From Streptomyces sp. CA-278952 (GTDB lineage Bacteria; Actinomycetota; Actinomycetes; Streptomycetales; Streptomycetaceae): a stretch of 64,000 nucleotides of DNA. A program made the translations under genes and the position numbers. Location of the stretch: contig NZ_CP112880.1 of assembly GCF_028747205.1 (NCBI RefSeq), forward strand, positions 4,278,001 through 4,342,000, read 5' to 3'. This document shows positions 1,313 through 17,005 of the stretch, piece after piece. Within the stretch, counting starts at the first letter, position 1, and every line of letters starts with the position of its first letter. The notes beneath the pieces are model-generated. The model was not told the DNA's origin, made no database searches, and was given only the letters and a program-made list of their open reading frames with translations.

Positions 1313-1413
1313 CGCTCCGGGCCCTTAGTCCGGCCGGCCTCCGGGCCCTTCGTCCGGTCGGCGCTCCGGGGGCTTTCGTCCAGTCGCTGCTCCGAGGGCT
1401 TTCGTCTAGCCGG
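1313..1413. repeat. Four imperfect ~25-bp tandem repeats
   Basis: Four degenerate copies of a GC-rich unit (core CTCCGGGCCCTT-GTCCGGTCGG) begin near 1313, 1338, 1362 and 1387. They fill the gap between the convergent GNAT gene and the TraG-like gene, whose stop codon (1406-1408) lies inside the last copy. No clear terminator hairpin was seen; the repeats may have replaced or serve as the transcription end. Confidence 0.7.
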
Positions 1414-3022
1414 CGCCCGGGGCGGAGGCGTGCAGGCGGTCCTGCCAGCGGGCCCGTCCCTGTTCCCGGGAACGGAGCAGCACGAGGGCGGGCATGCCCC
1501 GGTGCTGGCCGGTCGCGAGCAGTTCCGGGAGCTGGGGAAGGGGCGCCACGGCCGCGATGTCGTCGAGGACGAGCGTCATTGGTGGGTCGAGCCGACCGTC
1601 GGATGACCGTGCGGCCATGCGGCGGCCGTGCTCGACCACGTCTGCGGCGAGCGCGGTGAGGAGGGGCATCGCGCCGGGGCGGGAGCGGGGATCCTCGATG
1701 GATTCGCCCACCAGATAGAGCGTTCCCCCTTCGGCCGCAAAAGATTCCAGCGCGAGGGAATCCGCTCGGTTCGCCGTGCAGGCCTCGCGGATGTGCACCG
1801 TGGACAGGGCGGCGAACGCCCGTACCGTCAGTTCCTGGGCCACCTCGCGCCGTTCGGGGTAGGCGGTGAGGGCGGACTCCAGGAGCCCGGCGAGTCCGGA
1901 TGCGGCCTTGGGGTGCGTACGGAGGAGGCGTACCGGTTCGTGGGCGCCGGACCCGGAGGCCCAGCGGAGGACCTGGCGGAAGGGGCGGCCGTCCACCGCT
2001 GCGGCGTGCAGCCAGCACTGGAGGAGCGTCTGCGCGGTGTCGGCCACCGCCGCGTCGATCCGGGCCTGCGGGCGTACCGGGGCGAGCAGGGCGGCGGCGC
2101 GTGCGGCGGCGACGTCGGGGAGCTCGCAGCCTGTGGTGGGCGACCAGTGGAGGCGGGCCGGGGTGTCGCAGAGGTGGCCCGGGTCGTAGACGAGGACCGG
2201 GCCGAGCTTGGCGCGGGCGTCTTTCGTCTCGGCCCAGACGGTGGGGTCCGAGGTGACGACGAGGGTGGGGCCCTCGGCGTCGTGTACGGCCCGGACGACG
2301 GTGGGGCGCCTAGCGGGGGCGGGAGCGTAGACGAGGAGGGGGGTGCGGGGGGAGGGCAGGGAGAGGGGGAGAGGGAGAGGGGCGCCGGCGGGGGTGATTC
2401 CGGAGGGCTCCTCGGAGATCCCGGGGGCTTCGAGGGCCCCGGGGGCGTTGGGGGTTTCGCGGGCCTCGGGGGGCGTGGGTGTCTCTGTGGCCGCGGGTGT
2501 GCCTGCGGCTGTGGTGGGGTGAATTTTCGTCAGTGCTGGTGCCGGTGCGTGGGGCTGGACCGGGGCCGGGGGCGGGCTCTGTGCGGGGGGCTGCTTCTCC
2601 GGCGTTGCGAAGGCTCGTTCCTCGCGGCGGCCCTCCCGTACGGCACGACCACGGGCCACGACTCCGAGCGTGAACACCACGAGGACCACCAGCACCATCA
2701 GTTCGCCGATGAACAGGCCCCAGAACAGGCCGTACCCGGAGAGCTGGGCCGGAGGTGTCCCCGGCCAGGCCGCGGCGAGGTCCTGGGGGGCGGTGGCCAG
2801 TTCACGCAGGGCGAGAGGGGACCCGGTGAACGTCACGCCGTCCGGCCAGGCCCCGTGGGCGAAGAGCCCGGCGAGGCCGGTGGCCGTCCAGCCGACCAGG
2901 GTGGCGGCGAAGAGGAGGCCCAGGAGGCCGATCAGCAGGCCATCCGGGACGCCGCCGCCCTGGGGCCGGTCGCGTCCGTCGTGATGGGCCGGGCCCCGGC
3001 CGCGTGCTGCCTGGCGTGCCAT
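1406..3022 (-). CDS. VirD4/TraG-like coupling-type protein with degenerate P-loop
   Basis: Last gene of the T4S-like operon, 538 residues. Two membrane segments (about 28-50 and 98-123) are followed by a Pro/Ala-rich linker (about 145-225) and a cytoplasmic domain that aligns in layout with VirD4/TraG coupling proteins: a strand TPLLVYAPAP at 228, LVVTSDPTVWAETKD at 254, and a Walker B-like MTLVLDDIA with D487/D488. The P-loop position (229-243) reads LLVYAPAPARRPTVV and has no GxxGxGKT, so ATP binding looks lost. The ATG lies one base after the stop of the VirB4-like ATPase gene, implying coupling. Family assignment rests on layout and context. Confidence 0.75.
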   Translation of the reverse strand: MARQAARGRGPAHHDGRDRPQGGGVPDGLLIGLLGLLFAATLVGWTATGLAGLFAHGAWPDGVTFTGSPLALRELATAPQDLAAAWPGTPPAQLSGYGLFWGLFIGELMVLVVLVVFTLGVVARGRAVREGRREERAFATPEKQPPAQSPPPAPVQPHAPAPALTKIHPTTAAGTPAATETPTPPEARETPNAPGALEAPGISEEPSGITPAGAPLPLPLSLPSPRTPLLVYAPAPARRPTVVRAVHDAEGPTLVVTSDPTVWAETKDARAKLGPVLVYDPGHLCDTPARLHWSPTTGCELPDVAAARAAALLAPVRPQARIDAAVADTAQTLLQCWLHAAAVDGRPFRQVLRWASGSGAHEPVRLLRTHPKAASGLAGLLESALTAYPERREVAQELTVRAFAALSTVHIREACTANRADSLALESFAAEGGTLYLVGESIEDPRSRPGAMPLLTALAADVVEHGRRMAARSSDGRLDPPMTLVLDDIAAVAPLPQLPELLATGQHRGMPALVLLRSREQGRARWQDRLHASAPGAG

Positions 3023-3023
3023 G

Positions 3024-4442
3024 TCATGCCACCGTTGACTCTGACGACTCGTTGATCCGTTGCTGGTTCTCGATCCGGGCCGCCCGTTGTTCCGCCTCCA
3101 GCTCGGCGGCGCGGATGTCCTCGGGCAGGAGGTCGTCCGTCGATCCCTCGGTCATGGCGCGGTCGGTGAAGACCAGAGGGCGTTCGGCTTCGGTGATCAG
3201 GTGCTTGACGACCTGGACGTTGCCGTTGACGTCCCAGACGGCGATGCCGGGCGTGAGCGTCGGAATGATCTCGACGGCCCAGCGGGGCAGGCCGATGACC
3301 CGGCCGGTCGCTCGGGCCTCGTCCGATTTCTGGGCGTAGATCGTGCGGGTGGACGCCATCTTGAGGATGGCCGCCGCTTCCTTCGCCGCGGCCCCGTCCA
3401 CCACGTCGCTGAGGTGGTGGACGACGGCGACGAAGGAGAGGCCGAGGCGGCGTCCGAACTTCAGGAGGCGCTGGAAGAGCTGCGCGACGAAGGGGGAGTT
3501 GATGATGTGCCACGCCTCCTCGACCAGGAAGATGCGCTTCTTGCGGTCGGGCCTGATCCAGGTGTGCTCCAGCCAGACGCCGACGATCGCCATCAGGATC
3601 GGCATCGCGATCGAGTTGCGGTCGATGTGCGAGAGGTCGAAGACGATGAGGGGCGCGTCGAGGTCGATGCCGACGCTCGTGGGGCCGTCGAACATGCCAC
3701 GCAGGTCACCGTCGACCAGGCGGTCCAGGACGAGGGCGACGTCCAGGCCCCAGGCCCGTACATCGTCTATGTCGACGTTCATCGCCTCGGCGGACTCGGG
3801 CTTCGGGTGGCGCAGCTGCTCCACGATGTCCATCAGGACCGGCTGGCGGTCGGTGTTGGTCGCGGTGACGTAGGCGTGGGCGACCTTCAGGGCGAAGCCG
3901 GAACGTTCGTCGAGCCCGTGGCCCATCGCCACTTCGATGATCGTACGGAGCAGGGCGAGCTGGCCGGTGGTGGTGATGGAGGGGTCGAGGGGGTTGAGCC
4001 GGATACCGCCGTTGAGGGCTGCGGTCGGGTCCAGGCGGATGGGGGTTATGCCCAGCTCCTGGGCGATGAGGTTCCATTCGCCGACGCCGTCCTCGCCCTG
4101 GGCGTCGAGGACGACGACCTGGCGGTCACGGAAGCGGAGCTGGCGCAGGACATAGGTCTTCTCCAGCGCCGACTTGCCGTTGCCGGACTCGCCGAGGACG
4201 AGCCAGTGGGGGGCGGGGAGCTGTTGCCCGTACAGCTGGAAGGGGTCGTAGATGTAGCCCTTGCCGCTGTAGACCTCGCGGCCGATGATCACGCCGGAGT
4301 CGCCGAGGCCGGGGGCGGCGGTGGGGAGGTAGACGGCCTGGGCCTGGCCCGTCGACGTACGGACGGGGAGGCGGGTCGTCTCCACCTTGCCGAAGAGGAA
4401 GGAGGTGAAGGCATCCGACAATGCGGACAGGGGGTCTCGCAT
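3024..4442 (-). CDS. VirB4/TraC-like ATPase (C-terminal ATPase half as separate protein)
   Basis: Cytoplasmic motor of the T4S-like system, 472 residues. Walker A is GESGNGKS at 84-91; the Walker B strand RIFLVEEAWH carries E308/E309; the segments LGITPIRLDP and GIRLNPLDP and a C-terminal RAxG region (DEARATGRVIGLP) follow the VirB4/HerA pattern. It lacks the VirB4 N-terminal domain, which the upstream gene carries instead, so VirB4 appears split over two polypeptides. The gap to the upstream gene is 129 bp, the only sizeable gap inside the operon; the downstream gene starts one base after its stop. Confidence 0.88.
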   Translation of the reverse strand: MRDPLSALSDAFTSFLFGKVETTRLPVRTSTGQAQAVYLPTAAPGLGDSGVIIGREVYSGKGYIYDPFQLYGQQLPAPHWLVLGESGNGKSALEKTYVLRQLRFRDRQVVVLDAQGEDGVGEWNLIAQELGITPIRLDPTAALNGGIRLNPLDPSITTTGQLALLRTIIEVAMGHGLDERSGFALKVAHAYVTATNTDRQPVLMDIVEQLRHPKPESAEAMNVDIDDVRAWGLDVALVLDRLVDGDLRGMFDGPTSVGIDLDAPLIVFDLSHIDRNSIAMPILMAIVGVWLEHTWIRPDRKKRIFLVEEAWHIINSPFVAQLFQRLLKFGRRLGLSFVAVVHHLSDVVDGAAAKEAAAILKMASTRTIYAQKSDEARATGRVIGLPRWAVEIIPTLTPGIAVWDVNGNVQVVKHLITEAERPLVFTDRAMTEGSTDDLLPEDIRAAELEAEQRAARIENQQRINESSESTVA

Positions 4443-4502
4443 GGTGGGGGTGCCCTCTCTTGTTGCGGTTCTTCCTGCGGTTCTTCCTGCGGGTGGTGCA
4501 GG

Positions 4503-4537
4503 GGTGATCGATCGGATGGGGAACGGTGATCGATCGG
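4503..4537. repeat. Direct repeat GGTGATCGATCGG x2 inside the T4S-like operon
   Basis: Two identical 13-bp copies (4503-4515 and 4525-4537), each containing the palindrome GATCGATC, lie in the 129-bp gap between the PrgI/VirB4-N gene and the VirB4 ATPase gene. A 12-bp duplication GCGGTTCTTCCT lies beside them near 4467-4490. A spaced pair of palindromic boxes could be a regulator site for an internal promoter, but no function is known. Confidence 0.6.
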
Positions 4538-4571
4538 GTGGTGCGGCGGGGATCGGTACGGTGTCAGGTCG

Positions 4572-6122
4572 TCACCGGCGGATGCCGGTGGCGAACGGGA
4601 GCGTGTTCACGAAGGCCCGGTGGTGCTCGCGGTCGCACCATTCCAGCTTGAGATACGACTTGCCCGCCGAGGCGCGGATGGTGCGCTTGTCGCGGGCGAG
4701 GGCCTCCGGTGAGCGCGACGACACCGTGATGTACCCCACCAGGTTCACTCCGGCCGCTCCGCTGGCGAGATCTTCACCCCGCTGGTCGAGCCGGCCGTGG
4801 GCGGCGATGTCCCGGGGGTCGACGGTGCGGTTCATCTTGGCCTGGCGGCTGGCCTCGGCGTCGTCGTTGGTCTTCTCGGTCAGCATGCGTTCGATGGCTA
4901 CCTCGGTGGGTTCGAGGTCCATGCAGACGGCGACCGTACGGATGACGTCGGGGGTGTGGACGAGGAGCGGGGCGAGGAAGTTGACGCCGACGGGGGTCAT
5001 GGGCCATTCCTTCACCCAGGCCGTGGCGTGGCACCAGGGGGCGCGGGTGGAGGACTCGCGGGTCTTGGCCTGGAGGAACGTCGGCTCGACCGCGTCCAGT
5101 TCGGCAGGCCAGGCGTTGCGCTTGGTCATGGCCTGGATGTGGTCGATGGGGTGGTCGGGGTCGTACATGGAGTGTACGAGGGAGGCCAGGCGGCTCTGGC
5201 CGAGCGGCTGGCGTACCCGGATGTCGGCCTCGGCGAGGCGGGCGCAGATGTCGGTGAGCTCGCGGGCCATGACGACGGCGAGGCCGGCGTCGCGGTCGAG
5301 CTTGCGGCCGCCGTGGGGGCGGGCGGCGCGGGCCATGGCGTTGGCCTCGGCGGCCAGTTCGCGGCTGTAGTGCATGCAGGCGACGAGGTAGGCGCGGTGC
5401 TGCTCGCTGGAGGTGGAGACCATGGACTGGAGCTGGTCGTAGGACTCCTGGAGCCAGCCCGGGGACGCCTTGTCGCCGCGCTGGGCGACGTCCTTGGCGT
5501 GGGCGTCGGGGTCGGCCGGGAGGGTGCGGGCGAGCATCTGGAGGCGGGTGACGAAGCCGTCGCCGTTGGCCACGTGCTTGAGGAGGGTGCCGAAGCGGTC
5601 GACGAGGGCTTCCTGGTCCTCGCTGTCGCGGAGGCCGACGCCGGGGCCCTCGATCTCGATGGCCGCGGTGACGGTGCGGCGGTCGGCGTGGAGGAGCACG
5701 GCGATCTCGTCGGGGCCGAAGGGGGCGGCGAGCCAGCTGATCCGGCCGATGCCGGGGGGCGGGCCGATCTCGACCTCACGGCCGTCGGAGCTGACGCCCG
5801 CTTCCATGGCGGTGGAGCGGTAGGCGGTGCCGCGGCGCAGGGAGCGTTTGAAGCTGCGGTTGATCTCGAACCACTTGTAGAAGGTGCGGCCCTTGTACGG
5901 GACGTACACGACGGCGAGAGCCAGCATGGGGAAGCCCACGAGGCAGACGATGCGGAGGGAGAGGACAGGGACGAGGAGTCCGCTCATCATGCCGAGGAAC
6001 GCGCCGGCGATGATGAGGGCGATCTCGCCGGTCTCGCGGTTCTTGCCGACGATCGCGTTCGGCCGGGCGCGGCCGATGAGATACGTGCGGCGGGGCGTCA
6101 TCGTGTGGGACTGGGTCGTCAA
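4572..6122 (-). CDS. PrgI(VirB3)-VirB4 N-domain fusion, SCO6880 family
   Basis: A 516-residue inner-membrane component. Two closely spaced hydrophobic segments (about 33-51 and 55-75) match a VirB3/PrgI-type hairpin, followed by a soluble alpha/beta region resembling the N-terminal domain of VirB4; no Walker motifs are present. I recognise it as the actinobacterial SCO6880 family that accompanies split VirB4 ATPases. The start is TTG at 6122: it overlaps the upstream stop (TTGA) and has GGAGGTGGAGGG directly before it. An ATG at 6101 is possible but has no ribosome site. The protein probably anchors the next gene's ATPase to the membrane. Confidence 0.85.
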   Translation of the reverse strand: MTTQSHTMTPRRTYLIGRARPNAIVGKNRETGEIALIIAGAFLGMMSGLLVPVLSLRIVCLVGFPMLALAVVYVPYKGRTFYKWFEINRSFKRSLRRGTAYRSTAMEAGVSSDGREVEIGPPPGIGRISWLAAPFGPDEIAVLLHADRRTVTAAIEIEGPGVGLRDSEDQEALVDRFGTLLKHVANGDGFVTRLQMLARTLPADPDAHAKDVAQRGDKASPGWLQESYDQLQSMVSTSSEQHRAYLVACMHYSRELAAEANAMARAARPHGGRKLDRDAGLAVVMARELTDICARLAEADIRVRQPLGQSRLASLVHSMYDPDHPIDHIQAMTKRNAWPAELDAVEPTFLQAKTRESSTRAPWCHATAWVKEWPMTPVGVNFLAPLLVHTPDVIRTVAVCMDLEPTEVAIERMLTEKTNDDAEASRQAKMNRTVDPRDIAAHGRLDQRGEDLASGAAGVNLVGYITVSSRSPEALARDKRTIRASAGKSYLKLEWCDREHHRAFVNTLPFATGIRR

Positions 6123-7507
6123 CGCCCTCCACCTCCTGTGTTCGAGTTACCTGTGGTGCCGAAGCCGCCTCCGCCTCGGGAGGAGCGGCTGCTGTGGGGG
6201 GTCCCGGAGGTGGGTGTGGACCCGCTGCGGGGTGAGGGGGCTGCGCCGCCCCCTCCGCCTCCGCCGGTGGTGCGGGAGCTGTGGGCGGCGACGCCGCCGC
6301 TGGCCGGGTTGGCGGGGCGGGCGCCTCCGCCTCCGCCGCTGTTCTGGTCGTTGCGCCCGCTGTGGGTCTTGATGCCCTGGGAGACGAGGGCGGCCGGGGA
6401 GCTGATCATGGCGGCGGCCTGGGCGCCGTCGGTGGCCTGCTTGCGGTTGGTGCGGGCGCCCTGGATCTCGTCGCCGAAGCCGGGGACGAAGCGGTAGATC
6501 ATGGCAGAGGCGAAGATGGCCAGCAGGATGATGGAGAGGCCGGAGACGACGGCGGAGAAGGCGTCGGGGCCGTCGCCCGTGGAGAGTGCTCCGGCGAGGC
6601 CGAGGACGATGACGATGACCGGCTTCACCATGATCACCGCGATCATGATGCCGGCCCAGCGGCGGACGTGGCCCCACATGTTCTTGTCGACGAGGCCGGC
6701 GTAGACGACGATCCCGAGGAGCGCGCCGACGTAGAGCAGGGCGGCGCGGATGACGAGCTCCAGCCACAGGATGCCGGCGGCGAGGATCGAGACGAGCGAG
6801 ACGACGATCAGCATGATCGGTCCGCCGCCGATGTCCTCGCCCTTTTTGAGGGCTTCGGCGAACGAGCCGAAGAAGACGTCGGTCTGGCCGCCGGTGGCGG
6901 AGGAGATGACCTCGGTGACGCCGTCGGTGGCGGAGACGATCGTGTAGAGGATCAGCGGGGTGAAGGCCGAGGCGAGGACGGTGAGCCAGAGGAAGCCCAC
7001 GGCCTCGGAGATCGCGGTGGTGAGGGGGACGCCGCGGATGGCCCGCTTGGCTACGGCGAGGAGCCAGAGGACGAGGGTGAGGATGGTGGAGGCCGCGAAG
7101 ATGACGGCGTACTGCTGGAGGAACTTGGGGTTGGTGAAGTCGACGTTGGCCGTGGACTCGACGGCCTCGCTGAGCTTGCCGACGATCCAGGAGGCGGCGT
7201 CGGCGCAGCCTCGGGCCAGTGCGGAGAGGGGGTCGAGGGACTCTGTCGGGTCGGGAGATCCCGGCACGCTGCTGGGAGCGCTGTCGCCGTCGCCTTCCTC
7301 GCAGAACTTCTTCACCTCGCCGAACAGCAGACTGCAGTCATTGCTGGCGCTCGGTGAAGGCGTCGGGGTGGGGGTCGGTTCCGCGGCCGCGCGTCCGGCG
7401 AACGTCAGCGCGGCTGCTTGCAGTCCGGTCAGCGTGGTGGTCACCGTACGGAAGCGGTGCTGGCGACTACGGCGCTGGGGACTTGGGCGCTTGGGGCTAC
7501 CTGGCAT
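6119..7507 (-). CDS. VirB6/TrbL-like polytopic membrane protein
   Basis: A 462-residue integral membrane protein. After an N-terminal hydrophobic stretch ending AGRAAA come a Pro/Thr-rich spacer, an extracytoplasmic segment with paired cysteines, then at least six membrane segments (among them FAASTILTLVLWLLAVAK, GPIMLIVVSLVSILAAGIL and VSGLSIILLAIFASAMIY) and a cytoplasmic-looking tail of about 90 residues made mostly of Gly, Ser and Thr. The topology and position fit the channel subunit of a T4S system. ATG 7507 overlaps the end of the VirB8-like gene by 11 bases; the longer frame to 7573 has no support. Low-complexity tails of this kind occur in actinobacterial TrbL-like proteins. Confidence 0.82.
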   Translation of the reverse strand: MPGSPKRPSPQRRSRQHRFRTVTTTLTGLQAAALTFAGRAAAEPTPTPTPSPSASNDCSLLFGEVKKFCEEGDGDSAPSSVPGSPDPTESLDPLSALARGCADAASWIVGKLSEAVESTANVDFTNPKFLQQYAVIFAASTILTLVLWLLAVAKRAIRGVPLTTAISEAVGFLWLTVLASAFTPLILYTIVSATDGVTEVISSATGGQTDVFFGSFAEALKKGEDIGGGPIMLIVVSLVSILAAGILWLELVIRAALLYVGALLGIVVYAGLVDKNMWGHVRRWAGIMIAVIMVKPVIVIVLGLAGALSTGDGPDAFSAVVSGLSIILLAIFASAMIYRFVPGFGDEIQGARTNRKQATDGAQAAAMISSPAALVSQGIKTHSGRNDQNSGGGGGARPANPASGGVAAHSSRTTGGGGGGGAAPSPRSGSTPTSGTPHSSRSSRGGGGFGTTGNSNTGGGGR

Positions 7508-8366
7508 AAGTGAAGCCTCCGTACTCCTCGACGGCCTTGCTGATCGCGTCGGACTGGGAAGCCGCGACATCACCGGGAACCGGCGCCGGGCCGTCGCTCT
7601 CGGATGCTCCCGTCACTTTCCAGTCACCGTCCAGCCACGCCAACTGAGCCGTCCACGTCTTCCAGGTCGTGCTCACGGGTTTGGTGGAGTCCTGCCCGGA
7701 CATGCCGATGAGCCCCGTGTACCAGACAGCTACCTTTGCGGTGTCGCCGTCGAACGCCAGCACCTTCGTGCCCACGGGAACGGTCCTCGAGATGAAGGTG
7801 CTGCCCTGTGGGGCATTGCCGTCGGGGTCGAGACCGAGGTGCGCGAGGAACTCGGCCGAGTAGGCCAGGTCCTGACGTGCTCGGAGTTGATCCGCCGCCG
7901 CGGGCGAGTAGACCGTGTCGAGGATCTGGTGGCGGCTCTCCTTCGTGAACATCTCCGCAGACCCCAGCGCCACCGCATAGTTCGCCGCAGCGCTCTGCGC
8001 CCCCTGTTCGTCGTGGGCGAAGCCGGAGGCGATCGTGCCGTTCTTGCCCTGGACGGGTTGGGTGCCGGTGGCCGCGGTGGGGGCGCTTCCGGTGGTTCCG
8101 GGCTTTTTCGCGCCCGGCGCGGCGTCCTCGTCGCTGCCACCGCCGCGGTTGGCGAAGGCGATGGCGGCGACGAGGAGGACCACGACACCGGTGATCGTCA
8201 GGAGGGAGCGGGAGGTGCGGACCGGGCGGCGCGCGTGCGGGAGACCCGCATCGCCGTCGGGGAGACGGGTGCGGGTCTGACGGGTGCCGCCGAGGGTGCT
8301 GTACGGGTCGTCCGGGCGGCCCCCCTGGTCCTTGCCGCGGTAGTCGTGCTCGCCACCGGGACTCAT
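7497..8366 (-). CDS. VirB8/TcpC-like bitopic transfer protein
   Basis: A 289-residue protein with a charged cytoplasmic N-terminus, one membrane segment (SLLTITGVVVLLVAAIAF, about 54-71), a flexible linker and an extracytoplasmic domain of about 180 residues (AQSAAANYAVALGSAEM ... WTAQLAWLDGDWKV). That order and the closing Trp-rich strands suggest the NTF2-like fold of VirB8 and TcpC; the match is by layout, not by a catalytic motif. ATG 8366 is preceded by GAGGGAG at good spacing; an upstream GTG-type extension to 8471 is unlikely. It is translationally coupled to the TrbL-like gene. Confidence 0.75.
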   Translation of the reverse strand: MSPGGEHDYRGKDQGGRPDDPYSTLGGTRQTRTRLPDGDAGLPHARRPVRTSRSLLTITGVVVLLVAAIAFANRGGGSDEDAAPGAKKPGTTGSAPTAATGTQPVQGKNGTIASGFAHDEQGAQSAAANYAVALGSAEMFTKESRHQILDTVYSPAAADQLRARQDLAYSAEFLAHLGLDPDGNAPQGSTFISRTVPVGTKVLAFDGDTAKVAVWYTGLIGMSGQDSTKPVSTTWKTWTAQLAWLDGDWKVTGASESDGPAPVPGDVAASQSDAISKAVEEYGGFTYAR

Positions 8367-8559
8367 GCCGCGTTCGCTCCCTCGGTCGTGTGCAGATCCG
8401 CGCAGGACGACGGTAGCTGTGCTGGTTGCCGCTTGAGCGCGGTGTGGTGACTCGACATCAGGGAAACGCAACCTCAGCCGGTGGGCGCGACGGGCGGATG
8501 GTGGGGAGCGGGCTGGGACGGCCCGGACGGGACGGCCGACGGGGATGGCCGACGGTGGG

Positions 8560-8877
8560 TCAGACGGCCATTCCGTAGACGATGGTGAACAGGGTGCCCA
8601 GGGAGCCGATGATGAAGACCCCTGTCAGCCCTGCCACGATCAGGCCCTTGCCCTGCTCCGCGCTGAACGTGTCGCGCAGTGCCGTCGCTCCGATGCGCTG
8701 CTTCGCCGCGCCCCAGATCGCGATGCCGAGGCAGAGCAGAATGGCAATGGCCATCACCACCTCGATCATGATGCGCGCCTCGTTGCCCAGCGTCCCGAAC
8801 GGCCCCCAGTCCGGAGCGATTCCGCCGATGATGGTGGTGATGTCGCCCTTCTCTGCTGCCAGGATCATGTAAGTCAC
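8560..8877 (-). CDS. Small two-helix membrane protein, VirB2/TrbC-like
   Basis: First gene of the T4S-like operon, 105 residues, with two hydrophobic helices (about 36-57 and 79-101) joined by a short basic cytoplasmic loop (KQRIGATALRD). Size, two-helix topology and place at the head of the operon are those of VirB2/TrbC-type pilins or other small T4S membrane subunits. There is no cleavable signal peptide, unlike classical VirB2, so the pilin role is an inference. Start GTG 8877 follows AGGGGCG; ATG 8868 is an alternative. Its stop lies about 190 bases before the VirB8-like gene. Confidence 0.72.
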   Translation of the reverse strand: MTYMILAAEKGDITTIIGGIAPDWGPFGTLGNEARIMIEVVMAIAILLCLGIAIWGAAKQRIGATALRDTFSAEQGKGLIVAGLTGVFIIGSLGTLFTIVYGMAV

Positions 8878-9384
8878 CGCCCCTGTTGGGTAGTTCGCTG
8901 CCCGTGCCGTCCGGCACGGGTCGCCTTCTATCTTCGCTGATGAAACCGCGCTCGCACGACGCCTTACCGGGTCTCTTTACCCGGATCTCGCACGTTTGAC
9001 CGGGGCGCCCGTCCTGACCTGCGGCTCGTCCGGCTCTTCACGCACACGCCTGGTTACTCTATGTATCACGGGGTGTGACCAGGAGCAACGACGGTGGCCA
9101 TGGGTTCCCGCCGCGGTTGCAGCGTTCGCGGAGCACGGCGTGTTCGTATGCGCCGTTCGAGAGCCGTCGGTGCGCCGGTCGGCCTCCTGCTGGTGAGGGT
9201 GGTGGTGCTCGGCTCCCCCTTCGTTCGGGTGAACCGGGCGGCTCGGCGGGGACCGGTGCCCCGCTCGGCCCGGCCGGGAACCACGGGACCGGTGGCGTAC
9301 GGCGCCGGGACCCGACGGGTGTGCGTACGGCATGTCGCTCACCGCGTATTTGGCACAGTGCCGCTCCACGATCAGAGGAGCGGG
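8878..9384. other. Divergent intergenic region of the T4S-like locus
   Basis: About 500 bp between the small membrane protein gene (minus) and the WXG-like gene (plus). Open frames crossing it on both strands lack ribosome sites and coding bias, so I regard it as non-coding. It must hold both divergent promoters. A less GC-rich patch at about 9340-9365 (CGTATTTGGCACAGTGCC) lies close before the plus-strand start; no known operator was recognised. Confidence 0.6.
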
Positions 9385-9804
9385 GTGAGCGGTGTGGGCG
9401 GAGTGACCGTGGTCGGGCAACCGAACGATGGCGGGGAGCGGTTCGGGGCGCCGGCCGGATCGGCGGGAGCGGCGGCCGGGGGCGGGGATCTTCGGCACAG
9501 CGGCGGTCCGTGGCTGCGTGCCGCCGGCGGAGCCGATCAACTGGTCGCGCACCTCCGCCCGGTGAGGGGCGAGCTGGAGGCGGCGCACCGGGGCTTGATC
9601 GCCGGAGCCGGGGCTCTGGACGCGCTGGCAGAACTGAACTCCGTGCGTGCCTCGTGGGAGCGCCGGATCGAGGGCGCGCGAGGCGAGTGCGGGAGCCTCG
9701 CCGAGAAACTGCGGGCGGTCGTCCGGGGCCAGGCGCAGGCCAACGAGGCGGTGAAGAGCGGCTTCGACGGGGTGAAGACGCCGGGCGGTGGCGGCGAGTG
9801 GTGA
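9385..9804 (+). CDS. WXG100-like small helical protein
   Basis: A 139-residue, probably all-helical protein. After a Gly-rich first third come two long amphipathic helices with LRPVRGELEAAHRGLI, then NSVRASWERRIEGARGECGSLAEKL, and a short Gly tail. Size, helical hairpin and position immediately before a secreted-hydrolase gene suggest a WXG100/ESX-type partner or chaperone, though a strict W-x-G is not present at the turn. GTG 9385 is preceded by AGAGGAG at 9374-9380; the frame upstream to 9094 has no support. Its stop overlaps the hydrolase start (GTGA), so the two are translated together. Confidence 0.65.
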   Translation: MSGVGGVTVVGQPNDGGERFGAPAGSAGAAAGGGDLRHSGGPWLRAAGGADQLVAHLRPVRGELEAAHRGLIAGAGALDALAELNSVRASWERRIEGARGECGSLAEKLRAVVRGQAQANEAVKSGFDGVKTPGGGGEW

Positions 9805-11621
9805 GCGGACGGGGCGGTGGTGCCGGTTCAGCCCTGACCTGGACCGCGTTACGTGAGGTGAAGTGCGCCGAACTGGAGCAGGCGGCGGACGGCTGGGGGC
9901 GGGTCAGCAACCGTGCCGACGCGGCCCGGGACCGTGTCGAGGGCCAACTCCTGCCCGTTCTGCGCAACACCCAGAAGGGAGAGGCGGTGGGCGCGGCCGT
10001 GGGGCGGCTGCGGAGGCTGGGGACGAACTTCCAGTACATCTACACCGAGTGCGGGCTGCTGCGGACCACGCTGAACAGCCTCGCCCATGAGATCAGGGCC
10101 CAGCAGCGTGTGTTGCAGGGGGCGCTGGACGATGCGGCGGCGCTGCGGTTCACCGTGCACGCGGACGGTTCGGTGGCGTATCCGGCGGCGGGCGAGGGTC
10201 TGGTCGACGGGAAGCCGTTGGCGGGCGGGACGGCGTCCGGGGTTCCGAACCCGGGCATGGTCACCCCTTCGGGTCTCGTAGCGCCCAACCCGAACGCCGG
10301 CAAGGCCCAGGACATCGCGGACCGGGTGGCGCAGGCCGTACGGACGGCGGCCGACGCGGACTGGCGGTACACCAGGATTCTGCGGTCGCTGAAGGCGCAG
10401 GAGGGACTGGGCGTCCCGGCCGCGACTTGGAAGGACGCCGCGGCCGATGCGGCGGCGGTGCGGGAGGCGGCGGGCAGCTACCTGAGGAACGCGATCCCGC
10501 ACGATGCGAGCCCGGCGGAGCGCAAGGCGTGGTGGGCCGGGCTGACGGACGAACAGCGGGAGGAGTACCTCGCGGTGTACCCGGATCAGATCGGCAACCT
10601 GGACGGGATCCCGGCCCTCGTACGGGACGCGGCGAACCGGGACAACCTTCAGCTGCTGATGGGGAAGCTGGAGGGGCGGGACGACGAGGATTCGGCGACC
10701 AAGCTCGCGGCACTGCGGGAGATCGACCGGCAGTTGAGGGCGGTGCCGCGGGCGGGGGAGCCGCCGATGTACCTGCTCGGCATCGGGGATCAGGGAAACG
10801 GTCGGGCGATCGTCTCGTACGGGAATCCTGATACGGCGCGGAATGTGGCGGCTTATGTTCCGGGGTTGAATACCTCGTTGGATGAGGAGTTTGCCACGAA
10901 CGACCTGAAGCGAGCTCGTGACCTGTCCATCGTATCGAATCGTCATGGTGAACCTGCCGCTGCAATCACGTGGCTCGGATATGACGCACCGCAGTCACCG
11001 GATGGGCTCGGGTCTCTTTCTGTCGCTGCGGATGGCAGAGCGGAAGATGGTGGCTTGGCCTTCCGTGAATTTATGGGCGGAATCGAGGTAGCTAACGAGA
11101 ATCAAGATCCTCACATGACGGCCATTGGTCACTCATACGGCTCGCGGACCGTTGGGTCCGCTGCGCAGTATCCAGGCGGAATTCCCGGTGTTGATGACAT
11201 TGTGTTCGTCGGGAGTCCGGGAGTGGGGGTCGATAGTGCGGACGCACTCGGAGTGGGTCGGGATCATGTGTTCGTCGGAGCAGCTGCCAATGATGTTGTG
11301 ACCAAACTTCCATCCAAGGGCGAGTTCGCGGTAGGAGCGTCCGAGATGCTGGTCGGCGGGCCAGTCGCAGCTTATGTCTTCGGTGGACTAGCCGACAGAG
11401 GGGACGACGATGTCTGGTTCGGCAAGGATCCGGCCAGTGAAGCATTCGGGGCCCAACGATTCGAGGTAGGAGCTGGGCCGCCCCTGGTCGGTGAGGGGAG
11501 GGTCACGATCGATGCCCACTCGGAATACTTCGACCCCGAGCTCGATAGGACGTCGGTCGAAAATATGGCCTTGATCGCCGCAGGGCACGCGAACAGGATC
11601 CAAAGAGAAGAGCCTCGCTAA
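9801..11621 (+). CDS. DUF1023-type alpha/beta hydrolase, copy 1 (helical N-domain)
   Basis: A 606-residue protein. Residues 1-110 are predicted helical (LREVKCAELEQAADGWGRVSN region) and resemble WXG/LXG targeting domains. From about 225 a conserved region begins (KAWWAGLTDEQREEYL, NLDGIPALVRDAANR) that leads into an alpha/beta hydrolase fold with nucleophile elbow GHSYGS (S445), a probable acid D498 (AAAND) and His H573 (DAHSEYF). No classical signal peptide is present, so export would need a dedicated system. GTG 9801 overlaps the upstream gene by four bases. From about 10,820 to the end, base composition and codon use fall sharply (about 53% GC in 11041-11100) while the reading frame is intact. 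The reaction is unknown; esterase, lipase or amidase are possible. Confidence 0.85.
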   Translation: MSGRGGGAGSALTWTALREVKCAELEQAADGWGRVSNRADAARDRVEGQLLPVLRNTQKGEAVGAAVGRLRRLGTNFQYIYTECGLLRTTLNSLAHEIRAQQRVLQGALDDAAALRFTVHADGSVAYPAAGEGLVDGKPLAGGTASGVPNPGMVTPSGLVAPNPNAGKAQDIADRVAQAVRTAADADWRYTRILRSLKAQEGLGVPAATWKDAAADAAAVREAAGSYLRNAIPHDASPAERKAWWAGLTDEQREEYLAVYPDQIGNLDGIPALVRDAANRDNLQLLMGKLEGRDDEDSATKLAALREIDRQLRAVPRAGEPPMYLLGIGDQGNGRAIVSYGNPDTARNVAAYVPGLNTSLDEEFATNDLKRARDLSIVSNRHGEPAAAITWLGYDAPQSPDGLGSLSVAADGRAEDGGLAFREFMGGIEVANENQDPHMTAIGHSYGSRTVGSAAQYPGGIPGVDDIVFVGSPGVGVDSADALGVGRDHVFVGAAANDVVTKLPSKGEFAVGASEMLVGGPVAAYVFGGLADRGDDDVWFGKDPASEAFGAQRFEVGAGPPLVGEGRVTIDAHSEYFDPELDRTSVENMALIAAGHANRIQREEPR

Positions 11622-12178
11622 TGGATAGAGCCCGATTGATTATCGTTATCACTCTTTTGGGGACATTGCTGGCAGGGTGTGCAGGGGATCGGGGTGGAGA
11701 CATGGATATGCAGGATGCGGCTGAGCGCGCCGATGGCTTGCTCGACAGCGTTCTAGCCGAGATCGAGCCGAGTGTACTTTGGGTGCACGGTCCGACGACG
11801 ACGGGAAGTTGCACGGTTACTCGGAGGCGGACGGTCATGACAGTCGTCTCTGCTCAGCGAAGAGGAAGTCTCCTGGGTGTAGTGGATCGGTTCTGGCGGA
11901 GGAGCGGCTATCGCGTGACGGCCATCAATAGCCATTTCGATGCTCCCGCGATCTTCGTGAAGACGCAGGAGGGGTTCCAAGTGAGCCTGACTGTCGCTGA
12001 CAAGGGTCAAGTGCATTTCGATGTGGACAGCCCCTGCGTCCGCCGTTCCGAAGTCGCCGACTCCACCAGCCGTGCCACAGCGTTTCTCGATCCGGAAGCG
12101 CGGCTCATCCCCCGCCCCAACATTCACTCCGAATTCTGGTCGGCAGGAGCCCCCGGGGTGGCGGCATCAGGGTCGTGA
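11621..12178 (+). CDS. Lipoprotein paired with hydrolase copy 1
   Basis: A 185-residue putative lipoprotein with lipobox LLAGC (Cys20) after a short signal peptide. The mature part contains MDMQDAAERADGLLDSVL, WVHGPTTTGSC and SPCVRRSEVA, all shared with the paralogue at 14844-15428. The two cysteines outside the lipobox could form a disulfide. ATG 11621 overlaps the hydrolase stop (TAATG). Codon use is as low in GC as in the 3' half of the hydrolase gene, so the two arrived or changed together. A lipoprotein translated from the same message as a secreted hydrolase suggests self-protection or a partner role; this is inferred. Confidence 0.85.
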   Translation: MDRARLIIVITLLGTLLAGCAGDRGGDMDMQDAAERADGLLDSVLAEIEPSVLWVHGPTTTGSCTVTRRRTVMTVVSAQRRGSLLGVVDRFWRRSGYRVTAINSHFDAPAIFVKTQEGFQVSLTVADKGQVHFDVDSPCVRRSEVADSTSRATAFLDPEARLIPRPNIHSEFWSAGAPGVAASGS

Positions 12179-12333
12179 TCGGGGCAAGCTGGCTCAACTG
12201 GGTCGGTAGGTAAGGGTTTTGAGCCCTGTATTGGGCCCTGGGGCCCATGTCGTGTCCCCTGCCCGTGTGGTCGCATACGCGGAGTGACTGATCTGTCGCC
12301 CGTTCCGCCCACTCACGAGGTAGGGGACTGCTC

Positions 12334-14847
12334 TTGTCCGGCATACGAAGAAGCGCGGTCCCTGTTGGCGTCGATGTAAGCGCTGCCGTAGCGGATTCGG
12401 GGCGGTTGATGCCCCGGCCGTTGCAGGCGGTGCTGATCCTTCTTCACGTTCTCTTCGTGGCCACCCTGGTGGGCGCGGTCAGGGCCCTGTCGACGGCGGC
12501 CTCGGTGGACGCTGTCGACGGGTACCTCCTCGGGCTGTTGCTCTACGCGTCGTTACCCGGCATCGGCGCCTTCGTGCTGTCGCTGTACGTCCGTAAGGGC
12601 GGCGTCCGGGTCTGGTACGGGCTTCTCGCCGTTCAGGCGTGGATCGTCCTCGGCGCCCTCGCCGAGCTGAGCGGCGGGGCCGGGGCGGGGGGTGTCGCCC
12701 GGCTGGTGATACCGACGGCCGGCATCGTGCTGCTGTGCCGGCCGGGGAGCCGTCGATGGTTCCGGAGCGGTCTGGAGCAGCGGGCCGAGCAACGGCTGTT
12801 CAGCCTCGGCCGGATGATGAAGCTCCGCCGCGACGCCGGGCAGACCGCGCTGGAGTATCTGGGCCTCGTCCTCGTGGTCGTCGCGCTCGTCGGCGGGCTG
12901 ACGGCCACCGGAACCGGCAGGCAGCTCACCGCAGAGATCCGTAGCGCGATCTGCGAACTCACCGGTGGCTCGTGCCCGGCGTCGGGGCAGGACGTCGTGG
13001 CCGGCGGCGGAAGCGCCGGCGGGAGCGGCAACGGCAGCGGCGGCGGTGACGGCAGCGGTGTCGGCAGCGGTGACGATGATGCTTCGGGTGCCGGTACGGA
13101 CGGGGGTGCTGGTGCCGACGGCGGCGGTGGTGACGAGTCCAGTCTTACCGGGGGTGTCGGCGGTGCCGATACCAGCGGTGGCACGCGTGACACCGGAGGG
13201 ACCGCGACCACCGGAAGCACTGGCGGCACTGGCGGTACCGGCGGCGCTGGTGGAACTGGGGGAGACCGCGGCAGTACCGCCGGGAGCGCCAGCAGCGGCG
13301 GCAGCGGCTCCGGTGACGCCGTCGGCTCCGGGAACGCTTCAGGTGCCCAAGGGGGTGACCAAGGCGGCGGTGCCTTTCCCCCGAGCGATTCCCTTGTGCC
13401 GGTCGACGCGGGTAGACCCGCGGACCCCCATGGCGGCGGGTTCCTCGACGGGTTCCTCAGGGACGGGCTGGGCGGCGACGTGCAAGGGGTCGTCGACGCG
13501 GTGCTGCGGCCGGGCGAGAGCGGTCAGCGCATCGTCGACCAGTGGGGGCGCGACACCCAGGGCGCGGGTGAGAAATGGGGGCGGGGCGACTACGTCGGCG
13601 CTGTCTGGGACTGGAACAAGGCGGTCGGCGGCGCCGGCGCCGGGCTGGCGATACCCGGCTCCGGGGCGCGGGTCGACGCCGAGGTGCGGGACGCCGAGCG
13701 CGCGCACCTGAGCGGGCGGATCCCGCAGAACGCCACGCCCGCCGGGAACAAGGCCTGGTGGGACGGGCTCTCGCCCGAGGAGCGCGATCGGTACATCGAG
13801 CTTGTCCCGGAGCGGATCGGCAATCTCGACGGCATCCCGGTCCTCGCGCGCGACGCCGCCAACCGCAGGAATCTCCCCGCGCTCATCGACAAGCTGGAGG
13901 GCGTCGACACCGACAAGGCCCGTGACCAGCTGGCCGGGCTGCGGGAGATCGAGCGGCAGCTCGAGGAGGACGGGAAGCCGCCCATGTATCTCATCGGGAT
14001 CGGTGACGAGGGCAACGGGCGGGCCATCGTCTCGTTCGGCAATCCGGACGCCTCCCAGCACGTGTCGGCATACGTACCGGGGCTCAACACCTCGCTCGAC
14101 GAGGAGTTCGCCAAGAACGACCTCGGGCGGGCCCGGGACACCGCGATCGGGGCGCAGGGGTACGACGACTCGACTGCGTCCATCGTCTGGCTCGGGTACG
14201 ACGCGCCGCAGCTGCCGGACAAGGACGGGGCGGCGGGCTACTTCGCCGTCATGGGCACGGGGCGCGCCGAGAAGGGCGGGGCGGCCTACCGCGACTTCAT
14301 GGGCGGGATCTCCGTGACCAACCAGAACAAGGACCCGCACATGACGGCCATCGGACACTCCTACGGGTCCCGGACCGTGGGCGCCGCCGCGGCCCGGCCC
14401 GGCGGGATCCCCGGGGTCGACGACATCATCCTGGTCGGCAGTCCGGGGGTCGGCGTCGACCACGCCGTGGACCTCGGTGTCGGCAGTGAGCACGTCTTCG
14501 TGGGGGCCGCCGCCAACGACCCGGTGACCAAGCTGCCCTCGAAGACCCAGGTGGTGGTGGGCGGCATCGGGCTGGCCCTGGGCGGCCCCGGTGGGGCCTA
14601 TCTGGGCGGCGATCTGGCCGATCCGGGCGACGACGACCTGTGGTTCGGGAAGGATCCGGCGAGCAAGGCGTTCGGGGCGCGGCGCTTCCCGGTGGCCGAC
14701 GGACCGCCGCTCGTCAGTGGGAGCGGTGTCAGTCTGGACTCGCACTCGAACTACTTCAGCCCGGAACGCGATGCCGTGTCCGCGGACAGCATCGCCCTGA
14801 TCGTGTCGGGCAACGCCGACCGGCTCAAGATGGAGGAACCGAAGTGA
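12334..14847 (+). CDS. DUF1023-type alpha/beta hydrolase, copy 2, with Flp-pilin-like membrane segment
   Basis: An 837-residue multidomain protein. Residues 26-160 form four membrane helices; 161-190 read MMKLRRDAGQTALEYLG followed by a hydrophobic helix, the signature of Flp/TadE-type pilin signals; 220-365 is an extreme Gly/Ser/Asp linker; the rest is a DUF1023-like hydrolase with S676 (GHSYGS), D729 and H804 (DSHSNYF), closely similar to copy 1 along the whole catalytic part. The open frame starts with TTG 12334; ATG 12409 is equally plausible, and ATG 12814 would yield only the pilin-type signal plus hydrolase. Codon use is normal high GC. The hydrolase is expected on the outer face of the membrane. 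Confidence 0.82.
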   Translation: MSGIRRSAVPVGVDVSAAVADSGRLMPRPLQAVLILLHVLFVATLVGAVRALSTAASVDAVDGYLLGLLLYASLPGIGAFVLSLYVRKGGVRVWYGLLAVQAWIVLGALAELSGGAGAGGVARLVIPTAGIVLLCRPGSRRWFRSGLEQRAEQRLFSLGRMMKLRRDAGQTALEYLGLVLVVVALVGGLTATGTGRQLTAEIRSAICELTGGSCPASGQDVVAGGGSAGGSGNGSGGGDGSGVGSGDDDASGAGTDGGAGADGGGGDESSLTGGVGGADTSGGTRDTGGTATTGSTGGTGGTGGAGGTGGDRGSTAGSASSGGSGSGDAVGSGNASGAQGGDQGGGAFPPSDSLVPVDAGRPADPHGGGFLDGFLRDGLGGDVQGVVDAVLRPGESGQRIVDQWGRDTQGAGEKWGRGDYVGAVWDWNKAVGGAGAGLAIPGSGARVDAEVRDAERAHLSGRIPQNATPAGNKAWWDGLSPEERDRYIELVPERIGNLDGIPVLARDAANRRNLPALIDKLEGVDTDKARDQLAGLREIERQLEEDGKPPMYLIGIGDEGNGRAIVSFGNPDASQHVSAYVPGLNTSLDEEFAKNDLGRARDTAIGAQGYDDSTASIVWLGYDAPQLPDKDGAAGYFAVMGTGRAEKGGAAYRDFMGGISVTNQNKDPHMTAIGHSYGSRTVGAAAARPGGIPGVDDIILVGSPGVGVDHAVDLGVGSEHVFVGAAANDPVTKLPSKTQVVVGGIGLALGGPGGAYLGGDLADPGDDDLWFGKDPASKAFGARRFPVADGPPLVSGSGVSLDSHSNYFSPERDAVSADSIALIVSGNADRLKMEEPK

Positions 14848-15428
14848 GTCGAGCGAAGCGGGCTCTGCCCCTCGGCGCGGTCGTCCTTGCCCTGGGGGTG
14901 GTGCTGTCCGGGTGCGGCAGTGAGGACGGAAGCGCGCGCGACGGCGGCGTGAGCACCGGGAAGGAGCGCGGGATGGACATGCAGGAGGCTGCCGAGCAGT
15001 CCGACGCGATGCTGGACGCCGTCCTGAAGGGCATCGACCCCGATGTGCGGTGGGCGCACGGGCCGACCACCACCCGCGCCTGCGGTGTGACCCGTCGGCG
15101 GGCCGTCATGACCGTCGTCTCCCCCGAACTCCGTCAGACGTTCCTGGACCGTGCGGAGACGTTCTGGCGGAAGAACGACTACCGGATCAAGGCGGTCAAC
15201 AAGGATGAGAAGTTCCCGGCGGTCTACGCGGTCACGAAGAGCGGTTTCGGTGTCAGCGTCTCCTTCCGGGGGAAGGGACAGGCCTTCCTGGAGGCCGACA
15301 GCCCGTGCGTGAAGGAGTCCGATGTCGCCGCTCCCACCGCCGAGCCGAACGGTCCGGCGTACAAGGACGTCTATCCGCTGCCCCGTCCCAACGTGCGCTC
15401 CGACTTCTGGTCGGGGGACGGCGGCTGA
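14844..15428 (+). CDS. Lipoprotein paired with hydrolase copy 2
   Basis: A 194-residue putative lipoprotein with signal peptide and lipobox VLSGC (Cys24). It shares MDMQEAAEQSDAMLDAVL, WAHGPTTTRAC and SPCVKESDVA with the lipoprotein at 11621-12178, so hydrolase and lipoprotein were duplicated together. GTG 14844 overlaps the hydrolase stop codon by four bases (GTGA). The stretch after the lipobox (about 25-45) is polar and flexible. The role is unknown; co-translation with a surface hydrolase suggests protection or activity control. Confidence 0.86.
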   Translation: MSRAKRALPLGAVVLALGVVLSGCGSEDGSARDGGVSTGKERGMDMQEAAEQSDAMLDAVLKGIDPDVRWAHGPTTTRACGVTRRRAVMTVVSPELRQTFLDRAETFWRKNDYRIKAVNKDEKFPAVYAVTKSGFGVSVSFRGKGQAFLEADSPCVKESDVAAPTAEPNGPAYKDVYPLPRPNVRSDFWSGDGG

Positions 15429-15562
15429 GGCCGCGTCACCCATGGTGCCGGTGAGCCGTCGGCGCCCCCGTGTGCTTCGGGTGCGCCGGGTGTGCCGCGG
15501 ATGACTCGTACACACCGTCGAAAACGGCTCTGAAGCGCGCCCCGATGGGGGATGGTTGAGGG

Positions 15563-16573
15563 GTGCGGAAATTCTGGGTGTTCGGTGGCATCGGCGTCGG
15601 CATGGTCATGTGCTTCCTGGCGCTGCTCGTCGTCGGTACGTACTCCGCCGCCGCCGGGCTCGCCGGGCCGGGGGGCGGCGGTGCAGTCGCGCTGGCCAAG
15701 GGGGCGGTCCCGGCGCGGTTCCAGCCGCTGGTGCAGAAGTGGGGCAACCTCTGCCCCGCCATCAACCCGGCGCTGCTGGCCGCGCAGTTGTACCAGGAGA
15801 GCGGCTGGAACCCGCAGGCGCAGAGTCACGCCGCCGCGCAGGGCATCGCCCAGTTCATCCCCGGTACGTGGGCCACGCACGGGATCGACGGCAACGGCGA
15901 CGGCAAGCGGGACGTGTGGGACCCCGCCGACGCGATCCCCTCGGCCGCCTCGTACGACTGTGAGCTCGCCGGGTACGTGAAGAAGGTGCCGGGCGACCCG
16001 ACGAGCAACATGCTCGCCGCGTACAACGCCGGCGCGTACGCGGTGATCAAGTACGGCGGCGTCCCGCCGTACAAGGAGACGCAGAACTACGTCAGGATCA
16101 TCCGCTCGCTGGAGAAGAGCTTCGCCCGGCCCGTCGGCCGCGTCACGCCCTCCCGGCAGGCCGCCGGGGCCCTCTACTTCGCACAGAAGAAGCTCGGCAC
16201 GCCGTATCTGTGGGGCGGTAACGGGACGCCGGAGCAGCAGGGCCGGTTCGACTGTTCGGGACTGACCCAGGCGGCGTACCGGACCGTCGGCATCGAGCTG
16301 CCGCGCGTCGCCAACGACCAGTACAACGCGGGCCCGCATCCCTCGCGGGACGAGCTGCTGCCGGGGGATCTGGTGTTCTTCTCCGACGACCTCACCAACT
16401 CGCGTGCGATCCGGCACGTCGGGATGTACGTCGGGGGCGGCTATATGATCAACGCGCCGTTCACCGGCTCGGTCATCCGGTTCGACAAGATCGATACGCC
16501 GGACTACTTCGGTGCGACACGGGTCACGAAGGACGGCGCCGCCGCCCTTCCGACGGATCTGCCCACGGGGTGA
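15563..16573 (+). CDS. Bifunctional lytic transglycosylase / NlpC-P60 endopeptidase
   Basis: A 336-residue cell-wall hydrolase with an N-terminal membrane anchor or signal (11-30). The first domain is an SLT-type lytic transglycosylase with catalytic E79 in YQESGWNP, GIAQFIPGTW and AAYNAGAYA; the second is an NlpC/P60 cysteine peptidase with C231 (FDCSGL), H285 (RHVGMYVGGG) and probable third residue N297. The same pair of domains is used by the VirB1-like/TcpG-like enzymes of Gram-positive conjugation systems to open peptidoglycan for the channel. Its position at the end of the T4S-like locus fits that role. Start GTG 15563 is preceded by a modest TGAGGG. Confidence 0.9.
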   Translation: MRKFWVFGGIGVGMVMCFLALLVVGTYSAAAGLAGPGGGGAVALAKGAVPARFQPLVQKWGNLCPAINPALLAAQLYQESGWNPQAQSHAAAQGIAQFIPGTWATHGIDGNGDGKRDVWDPADAIPSAASYDCELAGYVKKVPGDPTSNMLAAYNAGAYAVIKYGGVPPYKETQNYVRIIRSLEKSFARPVGRVTPSRQAAGALYFAQKKLGTPYLWGGNGTPEQQGRFDCSGLTQAAYRTVGIELPRVANDQYNAGPHPSRDELLPGDLVFFSDDLTNSRAIRHVGMYVGGGYMINAPFTGSVIRFDKIDTPDYFGATRVTKDGAAALPTDLPTG

Positions 16574-17005
16574 CGGATGTCTCCCGGATGTCTCCCGCGC
16601 ATCCCCTGGCGGTGCCCGGCGGTTCCCGGTGTCCTTCCGTAAGGGTGTACCGTCCGGGGCTTCCGGAGCGGCCCAGGGTGCTGACGGGCAGTCGGCCGTG
16701 GTCGGAACTCTCTGTGAAGCCTGGGCCCTGAGCTGCGATGACGAGTCACTCTTCGATAACGTCATGGTGATCATTCGGTGGAGAGCGGAACGCACACGAC
16801 GACCGGGCCGTTCCCTGGACAGGGGACGGGAACGGCAGCGCACCGACCATGCGTCCGCACTGACCACGCGTCGCAGCAGTGATGCAGTACGGCGATGGTG
16901 TGCAGTGCGTTAGCGGTCAGCACCGGACACGGGGGTTCGACCACGGCGGCGTGCAAGGACGCGCGTCGCAGCAGAAGAAGCAGACAAGGCAAGGGGCCGC
17001 AGCAG
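16574..17005. other. Intergenic region before the PAP2 gene
   Basis: About 430 bp without a convincing gene. Frames crossing it (16512-16913 and the upstream extension of the PAP2 frame to 16895) have no ribosome site. The middle (about 16735-16790) is AT-richer, with CTCTTCGATAACGTCATGG, and may hold the promoter of the downstream phosphatase. I see no riboswitch or strong terminator. Confidence 0.5.

Follow-up and report, generated by a model that had tools for sequence, protein, structure and literature searches.

The cmd-tgdA locus of Streptomyces as a probable chromosomally adopted conjugation machine with a decayed coupling protein

Introduction

What might a type IV secretion (T4S)-like apparatus do on a Streptomyces chromosome, and do the toxin-like genes beside it belong to it? 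We address this question for a 64,000-nucleotide stretch of Streptomyces sp. CA-278952 (hereafter the window; 4278001-4342000 of an 8.2 Mb single-contig genome), whose closest named relatives, by CmdD similarity, belong to the griseus/anulatus/globisporus group of Streptomyces. The S. coelicolor numbering, carried over by synteny, makes the six minus-strand genes at 1406-8877 cmdA-cmdF (SCO4126-4131) and the plus-strand gene at 15563-16573 tgdA (SCO4132). The layout is that of the S. coelicolor cmdABCDEF locus (Xie et al. 2009, PMC2782261, in the excerpts drawn on here): six genes on one strand, one of them encoding VirB4-like CmdB, transcribed divergently from tgdA and its downstream phosphate genes. 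A first-pass annotation of the window had placed genes at 1406-8877 (minus) and 9394-16573 (plus), and translation, a codon-usage gene caller and family scans find them there; it had proposed a secretion system in which hydrolases are the cargo and lipoproteins their controllers.

According to the same excerpts, all six cmd genes are co-transcribed in S. coelicolor, and their deletion leads to late, poor sporulation, branching, uneven septa and early actinorhodin; segregation is impaired, 6-8% of mutant spores are anucleate, and a cmdA deletion leaves a wild-type look (PMC2782261). CmdB is described there as membrane-bound, and point mutants in its ATPase domain fail to complement, possibly, in the authors' view, through instability. 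Similar antibiotic overproduction is reported for tgdA, cmdBCDEF and SCO5677 mutants in excerpts of PMC6585502, and CmdE (SCO4130) appears in a glycoprotein list in those of PMC6593405. The available text of PMC2782261 mentions a possible type IV-like channel, and describes neither CmdA as a decayed VirD4, nor CmdE as a VirB8, nor TgdA as a member of the set. Similarly, the accessible portions of the literature carrying these locus tags do not present CmdA as a coupling protein, and "cmd" is absent from those of a T4S review (PMC12857230). The first-pass annotation, for its part, had noted neither the loss of ATPase motifs from its VirD4-like protein, nor the published identity of the genes, nor the variability of the interval between the two gene sets. 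The title of a 2013 study by Xie et al. reportedly ties tgdA to differentiation and actinorhodin; the wall enzyme is the same, and the present analysis adds its plasmid T4S counterpart and its collinearity with the cmd genes.

Results

Several of the T4S parts named at first pass stand on family or structural evidence. CmdB matches VirB4-type families and a VirB4 structure (Table 1), its P-loop (GESGNGKS) is intact, and GxxGxGKS is present in 94 of 99 CmdB and CmdB-like sequences. Since a profile search of the PDB with CmdE returned no match, CmdE was examined by structure comparison, which identified a VirB8 fold. CmdA gives a weak VirD4 match, and a search of the whole genome for the coupling-protein domain PF10412 returned no match, though CmdB alone scored 21.3 bits. 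The VirB6 and VirB2 labels of CmdD and CmdF come from gene order and profile matches to plasmid counterparts only, and we propose from its position that CmdC corresponds to VirB3 and the N-terminal part of VirB4.

All seven genes have plasmid counterparts (profile matches at E 1e-118 to 3e-21), and tgdA-F-E-D-C-B-A are collinear on the plasmid pMDJK44.2 (locus L261, typed MOBF), which thus shares its gene set and order, including an SLT/C40 wall enzyme, with the cmd-tgdA locus. The excerpts of PMC2782261 indicate the same gene set and order for SLP2. Together with the family matches and the VirB8 fold, the collinear set on pMDJK44.2 bears out the first-pass view that the chromosome encodes a T4S-like apparatus and, with it, a wall enzyme of VirB1 type. 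On pMDJK44.2 the gene immediately following the T4S-like set (L261 16135-21515) encodes a large DUF6531 protein that may be a polymorphic toxin.

Among the 199 genus genomes that formed our survey set for CmdC, PF06259 and lipoprotein searches, 198 contain a CmdC match; at class level, 89 of 295 sampled genomes do, the matches outside the genus being mostly distant. One such genome (G205, family f8) shows cmdB-F followed by a divergent tgdA 204 bp away, on a contig ending at cmdB. Five loci of another family (f15) encode CmdB and CmdC in all five cases, CmdD in four, CmdE in two and CmdA in none; a tgdA-like gene is present in three, the other two stretches ending too early to tell. In three of these loci (L224 12247-14133, L226 3962-4993, L228 3847-5298) a P-loop/MinD-like protein, judged by eye, is encoded where no CmdA was found. 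Median ratios of non-synonymous to synonymous substitution (dN/dS) relative to the window, for pairs with dS below 1.2, were 0.07 for cmdB (78 pairs), 0.09 for cmdC (79), 0.14 for tgdA (41) and 0.37 for both cmdE (30) and cmdA (62), values which point to constraint on all five genes.

In an alignment of 76 CmdA sequences from cmd loci (the window, 12 further Streptomyces, and the 63 of 80 named loci that passed length and quality filters), the P-loop lysine is kept in none. The DE of Walker B is replaced, by DD in 69 and ED in three, with other or missing residues in four, and the C-terminal part following it is missing in 75. CmdA of the window reads PAPARRPT where relatives have a P-loop (PREGKT, PRSGKG, MGSGKT). 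The lysine, Walker B and C-terminal part are all kept in five relatives, namely a second cluster in a Streptomyces genome (L223), one locus of another family (L229) and the plasmids L259-L261. PF02534 and PF12696 score strongly on L223 and L261, and CmdA barely passes PF12696. In a PDB search with the CmdA profile, TrwB appeared at no better than E 0.54 and ranked behind unrelated proteins (ATP synthase b) aligned on the Pro/Ala-rich linker of CmdA. Given the motif loss and a dN/dS of 0.37, CmdA appears loosely constrained and, by motif, no longer an ATPase. Active conjugation calls for a functional coupling protein with Walker A, and the cmd locus lacks one by this alignment. To judge from these sequences, the decay is a new trait of a known developmental T4S-like locus. 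The second cluster (L223 3673-4863) also encodes a secreted wall enzyme of its own (SLT/CHAP by eye), beside intact coupling-ATPase motifs.

Between cmdF and tgdA lie two modules of hydrolase and lipoprotein genes, the first preceded by a small partner. The DUF1023 hydrolases, the lipobox proteins and the SLT plus NlpC/P60 enzyme announced at first pass were all recovered; the "WXG-like" protein is so called by its look, all of its Pfam hits lying below cut-off. The genes are tightly packed: the small partner and hydrolase 1 overlap by 4 bp, the first base of lipoprotein 1 is also the last of hydrolase 1 (a 1-bp overlap), and hydrolase 2 and lipoprotein 2 share 4 bp. Across 22 hydrolase sequences, neither GHSYGS nor a His column in the C-terminal part varies. 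The predicted model of hydrolase 1 joins long N-terminal helices to an esterase fold, with PDB matches covering the C-terminal half; a Pfam scan that gave Abhydrolase_8 only, at E 0.1, accompanies this predicted helical N-terminus. Unlike hydrolase 1, hydrolase 2 starts (12430-12930) with several transmembrane-like segments and a pilin-like stretch (GQTALEYLG), followed by a long Gly/Ser linker, and this N-terminus gave a chance-level Pfam hit only. In 1-kb steps the G+C content of the window is 66-79%, except at 11001-12000, around lipoprotein 1, where it dips to 59%; this hints that the cassette has a separate origin.

Searches beyond the locus separate this cassette from the cmd genes. PF06259 is universal in the survey set (199 of 199 genomes), and the genome of the window has it at six places, two of which (hydrolase 1 and a place at 5.19 Mb) have the cassette-type hydrolase N-terminus; at 5.19 Mb the cassette carries a tandem pair of lipoproteins that differ in kind. 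A search with the lipoprotein gave matches in 64 of 199 genomes. With the threshold set at E 1e-10, 81 matches in 57 genomes remained: 38 (27 genomes) within 35 kb of cmdC, 10 far away on the same contig, and 33 either on another contig or in genomes whose cmdC falls outside the matches listed, including drafts in which nearness is not judgeable. Twenty lipoprotein loci away from cmd (the 10 distant ones, plus loci that are unplaced or lie on other contigs) were read for about 5 kb on each side. The hydrolase adjoins the lipoprotein in 19 and the small partner, by profile match, is present in 17; one lipoprotein is solitary, one locus has three in tandem, and no cmd or tgdA match occurs within that distance in any of the 20. 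Two or three tandem lipoprotein genes follow a single DUF1023 hydrolase at L258 4983-6618 and L265 5571-6872, with the look of orphan immunity genes. The genome also contains two EccB matches over cut-off, placing type VII machinery at two loci, a likelier export route for the hydrolases than the T4S-like machine.

The interval itself (8877-15563) varies between species. We fetched 100 Streptomyces regions, mostly taken down a list ranked by CmdC identity, so that close relatives are over-represented. Both cmdF and tgdA were placed in 87 of these. With the window added, the 88 gaps have a median of 4.2 kb; the shortest is 331 bp, the longest 14625 bp, and 14 are below 600 bp. For the 13 regions without a placed tgdA or cmdF, genome searches gave a tgdA ortholog (76-89% identity) in 12 and partial tgdA matches only in G001; tgdA lies away from cmd in G040, G068 and G011. 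Across Streptomyces loci L117-L216 the interval appears insertion-prone (331 bp to more than 14 kb, more in some genomes), with frequent regulator genes of the XRE-DUF5753 type and of a type which we take to be DUF397-like.

The hydrolase cluster occurs in at least 19 of 100 intervals (those of 99 fetched regions with cmdF, and that of the window), a lower bound because in G050, G073 and G176 the lipoprotein lies beside tgdA just past the fetched stretch, and in G068 the two are paired on another contig. In all 17 intervals showing both cassette and tgdA, the hydrolase or its lipoprotein directly adjoins tgdA; in two of these, the lipoprotein was missed by the gene caller and recovered by tblastn. 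The 80 named loci contain zero, one or two modules, many loci ending before tgdA, and in L109 the module is on the cmd strand. We also considered, and rejected, the interval as a dedicated effector bay: 71 of 167 cluster representatives (at least 90 aa; some from loci without a visible tgdA and possibly outside the interval) had hits to 106 Pfam families, each confined to at most two members, and the 25 families listed are mostly metabolic or regulatory, plus T7SS_signal and RHS proteins. The cassette is thus an accessory set, separate from cmd, within a variable interval. The steady association of hydrolase and lipoprotein genes with the T4S-like genes, expected at first pass, is largely contradicted by CmdC in 198 of 199 genomes as against the hydrolase in at least 19 of 100 intervals.

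Across 50 aligned leaders (10 with the cassette, 40 without), the roughly 20 bp that immediately precede the tgdA start are conserved, while a longer upstream stretch is conserved only among 17 cassette-bearing leaders, 72 others being little conserved in ungapped register. As the leader is conserved with and without the cassette, tgdA may have its own promoter. The start of tgdA in the window (15500-15563) shows a conserved GGGGGATGGTTGAGGGGTG-type leader, with a TA(C/G)AC element upstream in many species. A promoter and terminator scan of 8800-16700 remained near chance level.

Table 1. Genes of the cmd-tgdA locus and the interposed cassette, in window coordinates.
Feature	Position	Strand	Basis
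cmdA (SCO4126 ortholog), VirD4-like coupling protein	1406-3022	-	PF12696 22.9 bits (cut-off 22), weak C-terminal VirD4/TraG match
cmdB (SCO4127 ortholog), VirB4-like ATPase	3024-4442	-	PF12846, PF19044; PDB VirB4 4ag5 E 3.1e-6
cmdC (SCO4128 ortholog), SCO6880 family	4572-6122	-	NF042935 190.7 bits
cmdD (SCO4129 ortholog), multi-pass membrane protein, VirB6 position	6119-7444	-	plasmid-counterpart profile matches E 4e-72, 2e-40
cmdE (SCO4130 ortholog), VirB8-like	7497-8366	-	one transmembrane helix and NTF2-like domain
cmdF (SCO4131 ortholog), 105-aa membrane protein, VirB2 position	8560-8877	-	translation; plasmid counterparts E 4e-23, 3e-21
small helical "WXG-like" cassette partner	9394-9804	+	gene call; only sub-cut-off, chance-level Pfam hits
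hydrolase 1, helical N-terminus and DUF1023 alpha/beta hydrolase (GHSYGS)	9801-11621	+	PF06259 117.4 bits
lipoprotein 1, lipobox LAGC	11621-12178	+	translation; without Pfam family
hydrolase 2, membrane/pilin-like N-terminus (by eye), Gly/Ser-rich linker, DUF1023 domain	12430-14847	+	PF06259 113.7 bits; gene call
lipoprotein 2, lipobox LSGC	14844-15428	+	gene call; without Pfam family; stops 135 bp short of tgdA
tgdA (SCO4132 ortholog), SLT transglycosylase and NlpC/P60 peptidase	15563-16573	+	PF01464, PF00877; plasmid counterpart E 1e-88

The GTG start of hydrolase 1 was read from the sequence, the gene caller having picked 9858. The neighbours scanned with Pfam (GNAT, PAP2, DUF47 and Pit) are ordinary chromosomal genes, no search having been aimed at a relaxase, integrase or att site over the window; pst genes, recognised by eye, come after Pit. 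An rRNA operon (L264 9468-14619) lies 3.4 kb left of the window, which is probably why many draft contigs stop a few kb past cmdA. A search of PHROGs returned nothing informative.

Discussion

We favour, with confidence somewhat better than even, the reading that cmdA-F and tgdA are a conjugative T4S machine taken over by the Streptomyces chromosome for development, the cassette being accessory. This reading joins the gene order, homology, motif loss and distribution observed here to mutant phenotypes from the literature. Under it, CmdB, as a VirB4-type ATPase, would power a membrane complex of CmdC, CmdD, VirB8-like CmdE and CmdF, and TgdA would open peptidoglycan for the machine. CmdA would be the former VirD4 motor for a relaxase-DNA substrate, now retained without its ATPase motifs, and since these are missing the machine would no longer export plasmid-type DNA; instead it may contribute to septation or to growth of the envelope in aerial hyphae. 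The cassette would have come to lie next to tgdA in a single clade, its most likely export route being a different one (type VII or Sec). DNA transfer is probably not the purpose of the locus, as had been suspected at first pass: CmdA is decayed, and transfer of an SLP2-derived plasmid was unaltered by cmd deletion (data not shown by the authors; PMC2782261, excerpts).

A bolder extension, which we hold at somewhat less than even odds, is that a complete conjugation machine and its wall hydrolase have become a fixed developmental organelle whose channel a pseudoenzyme VirD4 plugs or scaffolds, a second actinobacterial family having followed the same route with VirD4 absent.

Comparison with known systems is instructive. 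Some Gram-positive T4S systems carry wall hydrolases of the CwlT/Orf14/PrgK type; VirB4, VirB8 and a two-domain wall hydrolase are common to these and to the cmd locus, which, unlike them, lacks an active coupling protein. The same difference holds for the three examined plasmids, all of which keep an intact VirD4-like ATPase, although L259 and L260 are typed as non-mobilizable in PLSDB and a typed relaxase is found on pMDJK44.2 only. Effector-immunity modules of the WXG/LXG type belong to actinobacterial type VII secretion and share with the cassette a small helical partner, a helical N-terminus, an enzyme domain and a downstream lipoprotein; the cassette, by contrast, gave no Pfam WXG/LXG match, and its export is putative. 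In the accessible portions of the literature joining DUF1023 with Streptomyces (a hydrolase classification) or with type VII, we found no study of the cassette.

Among the alternatives, a DNA pump in which CmdB, in the manner of FtsK/SpoIIIE, helps chromosomes to segregate in aerial hyphae, survives best, although we judge it unlikely. Suggested in the excerpted text of PMC2782261, it would account for the VirB4-like motor and for the anucleate spores of the mutants. However, the coupling motor is lost, bad septation can itself cause segregation defects, and the antibiotic phenotype is common to tgdA, which encodes a wall enzyme.

Slightly less probable still is that the cassette acts with TgdA in the envelope, independently of the T4S-like genes. 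The adjacency in 17 of 17 intervals, with hydrolase or lipoprotein immediately upstream of tgdA, is what such a partnership would produce, and by coordinates the lipoprotein also stands beside tgdA in G050, G051, G068, G073, G163 and G176, genomes in which tgdA and cmdC are either some 18-28 kb apart or on different contigs. One shared insertion would nevertheless yield the same adjacency, cassettes occur elsewhere without tgdA, and the roughly 20 bp preceding tgdA, conserved with and without the cassette, hint at independent expression.

The first-pass reading itself, with the hydrolases as cargo of the T4S-like machine and the lipoproteins as proteins that control or neutralise this cargo, we now regard as improbable and reject as the principal explanation. 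The cassette does adjoin cmd in one clade, its hydrolase and lipoprotein genes overlap, the GHSYGS and His columns are invariant, and tandem lipoproteins behind one hydrolase (L258, L265) are what immunity genes would show. Yet the association is loose: at least 19 of 100 intervals contain the hydrolase, the 20 loci read away from cmd are free of cmd genes, and 30 of 57 lipoprotein genomes have none placed near cmdC (several being drafts in which nearness is not judgeable). CmdA, the expected substrate receptor, is moreover decayed. The idea of contact-dependent secretion draws its only support from the cassette's resemblance to a toxin/immunity pair. Finally, a decaying remnant of an integrated element would fit the state of CmdA, but is very improbable given CmdC in 198 of 199 genomes, purifying selection by dN/dS, and the mutant phenotypes in the excerpts of PMC2782261.

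Conclusions

A known but unexplained sporulation locus can be separated from an accessory, toxin-like cassette. The locus thereby gains a testable reading, in which a T4S engine that has lost its substrate motor is paired with a wall-cutting enzyme. The possible role of such a domesticated machine in hyphae becomes a question for simple genetics and localisation.

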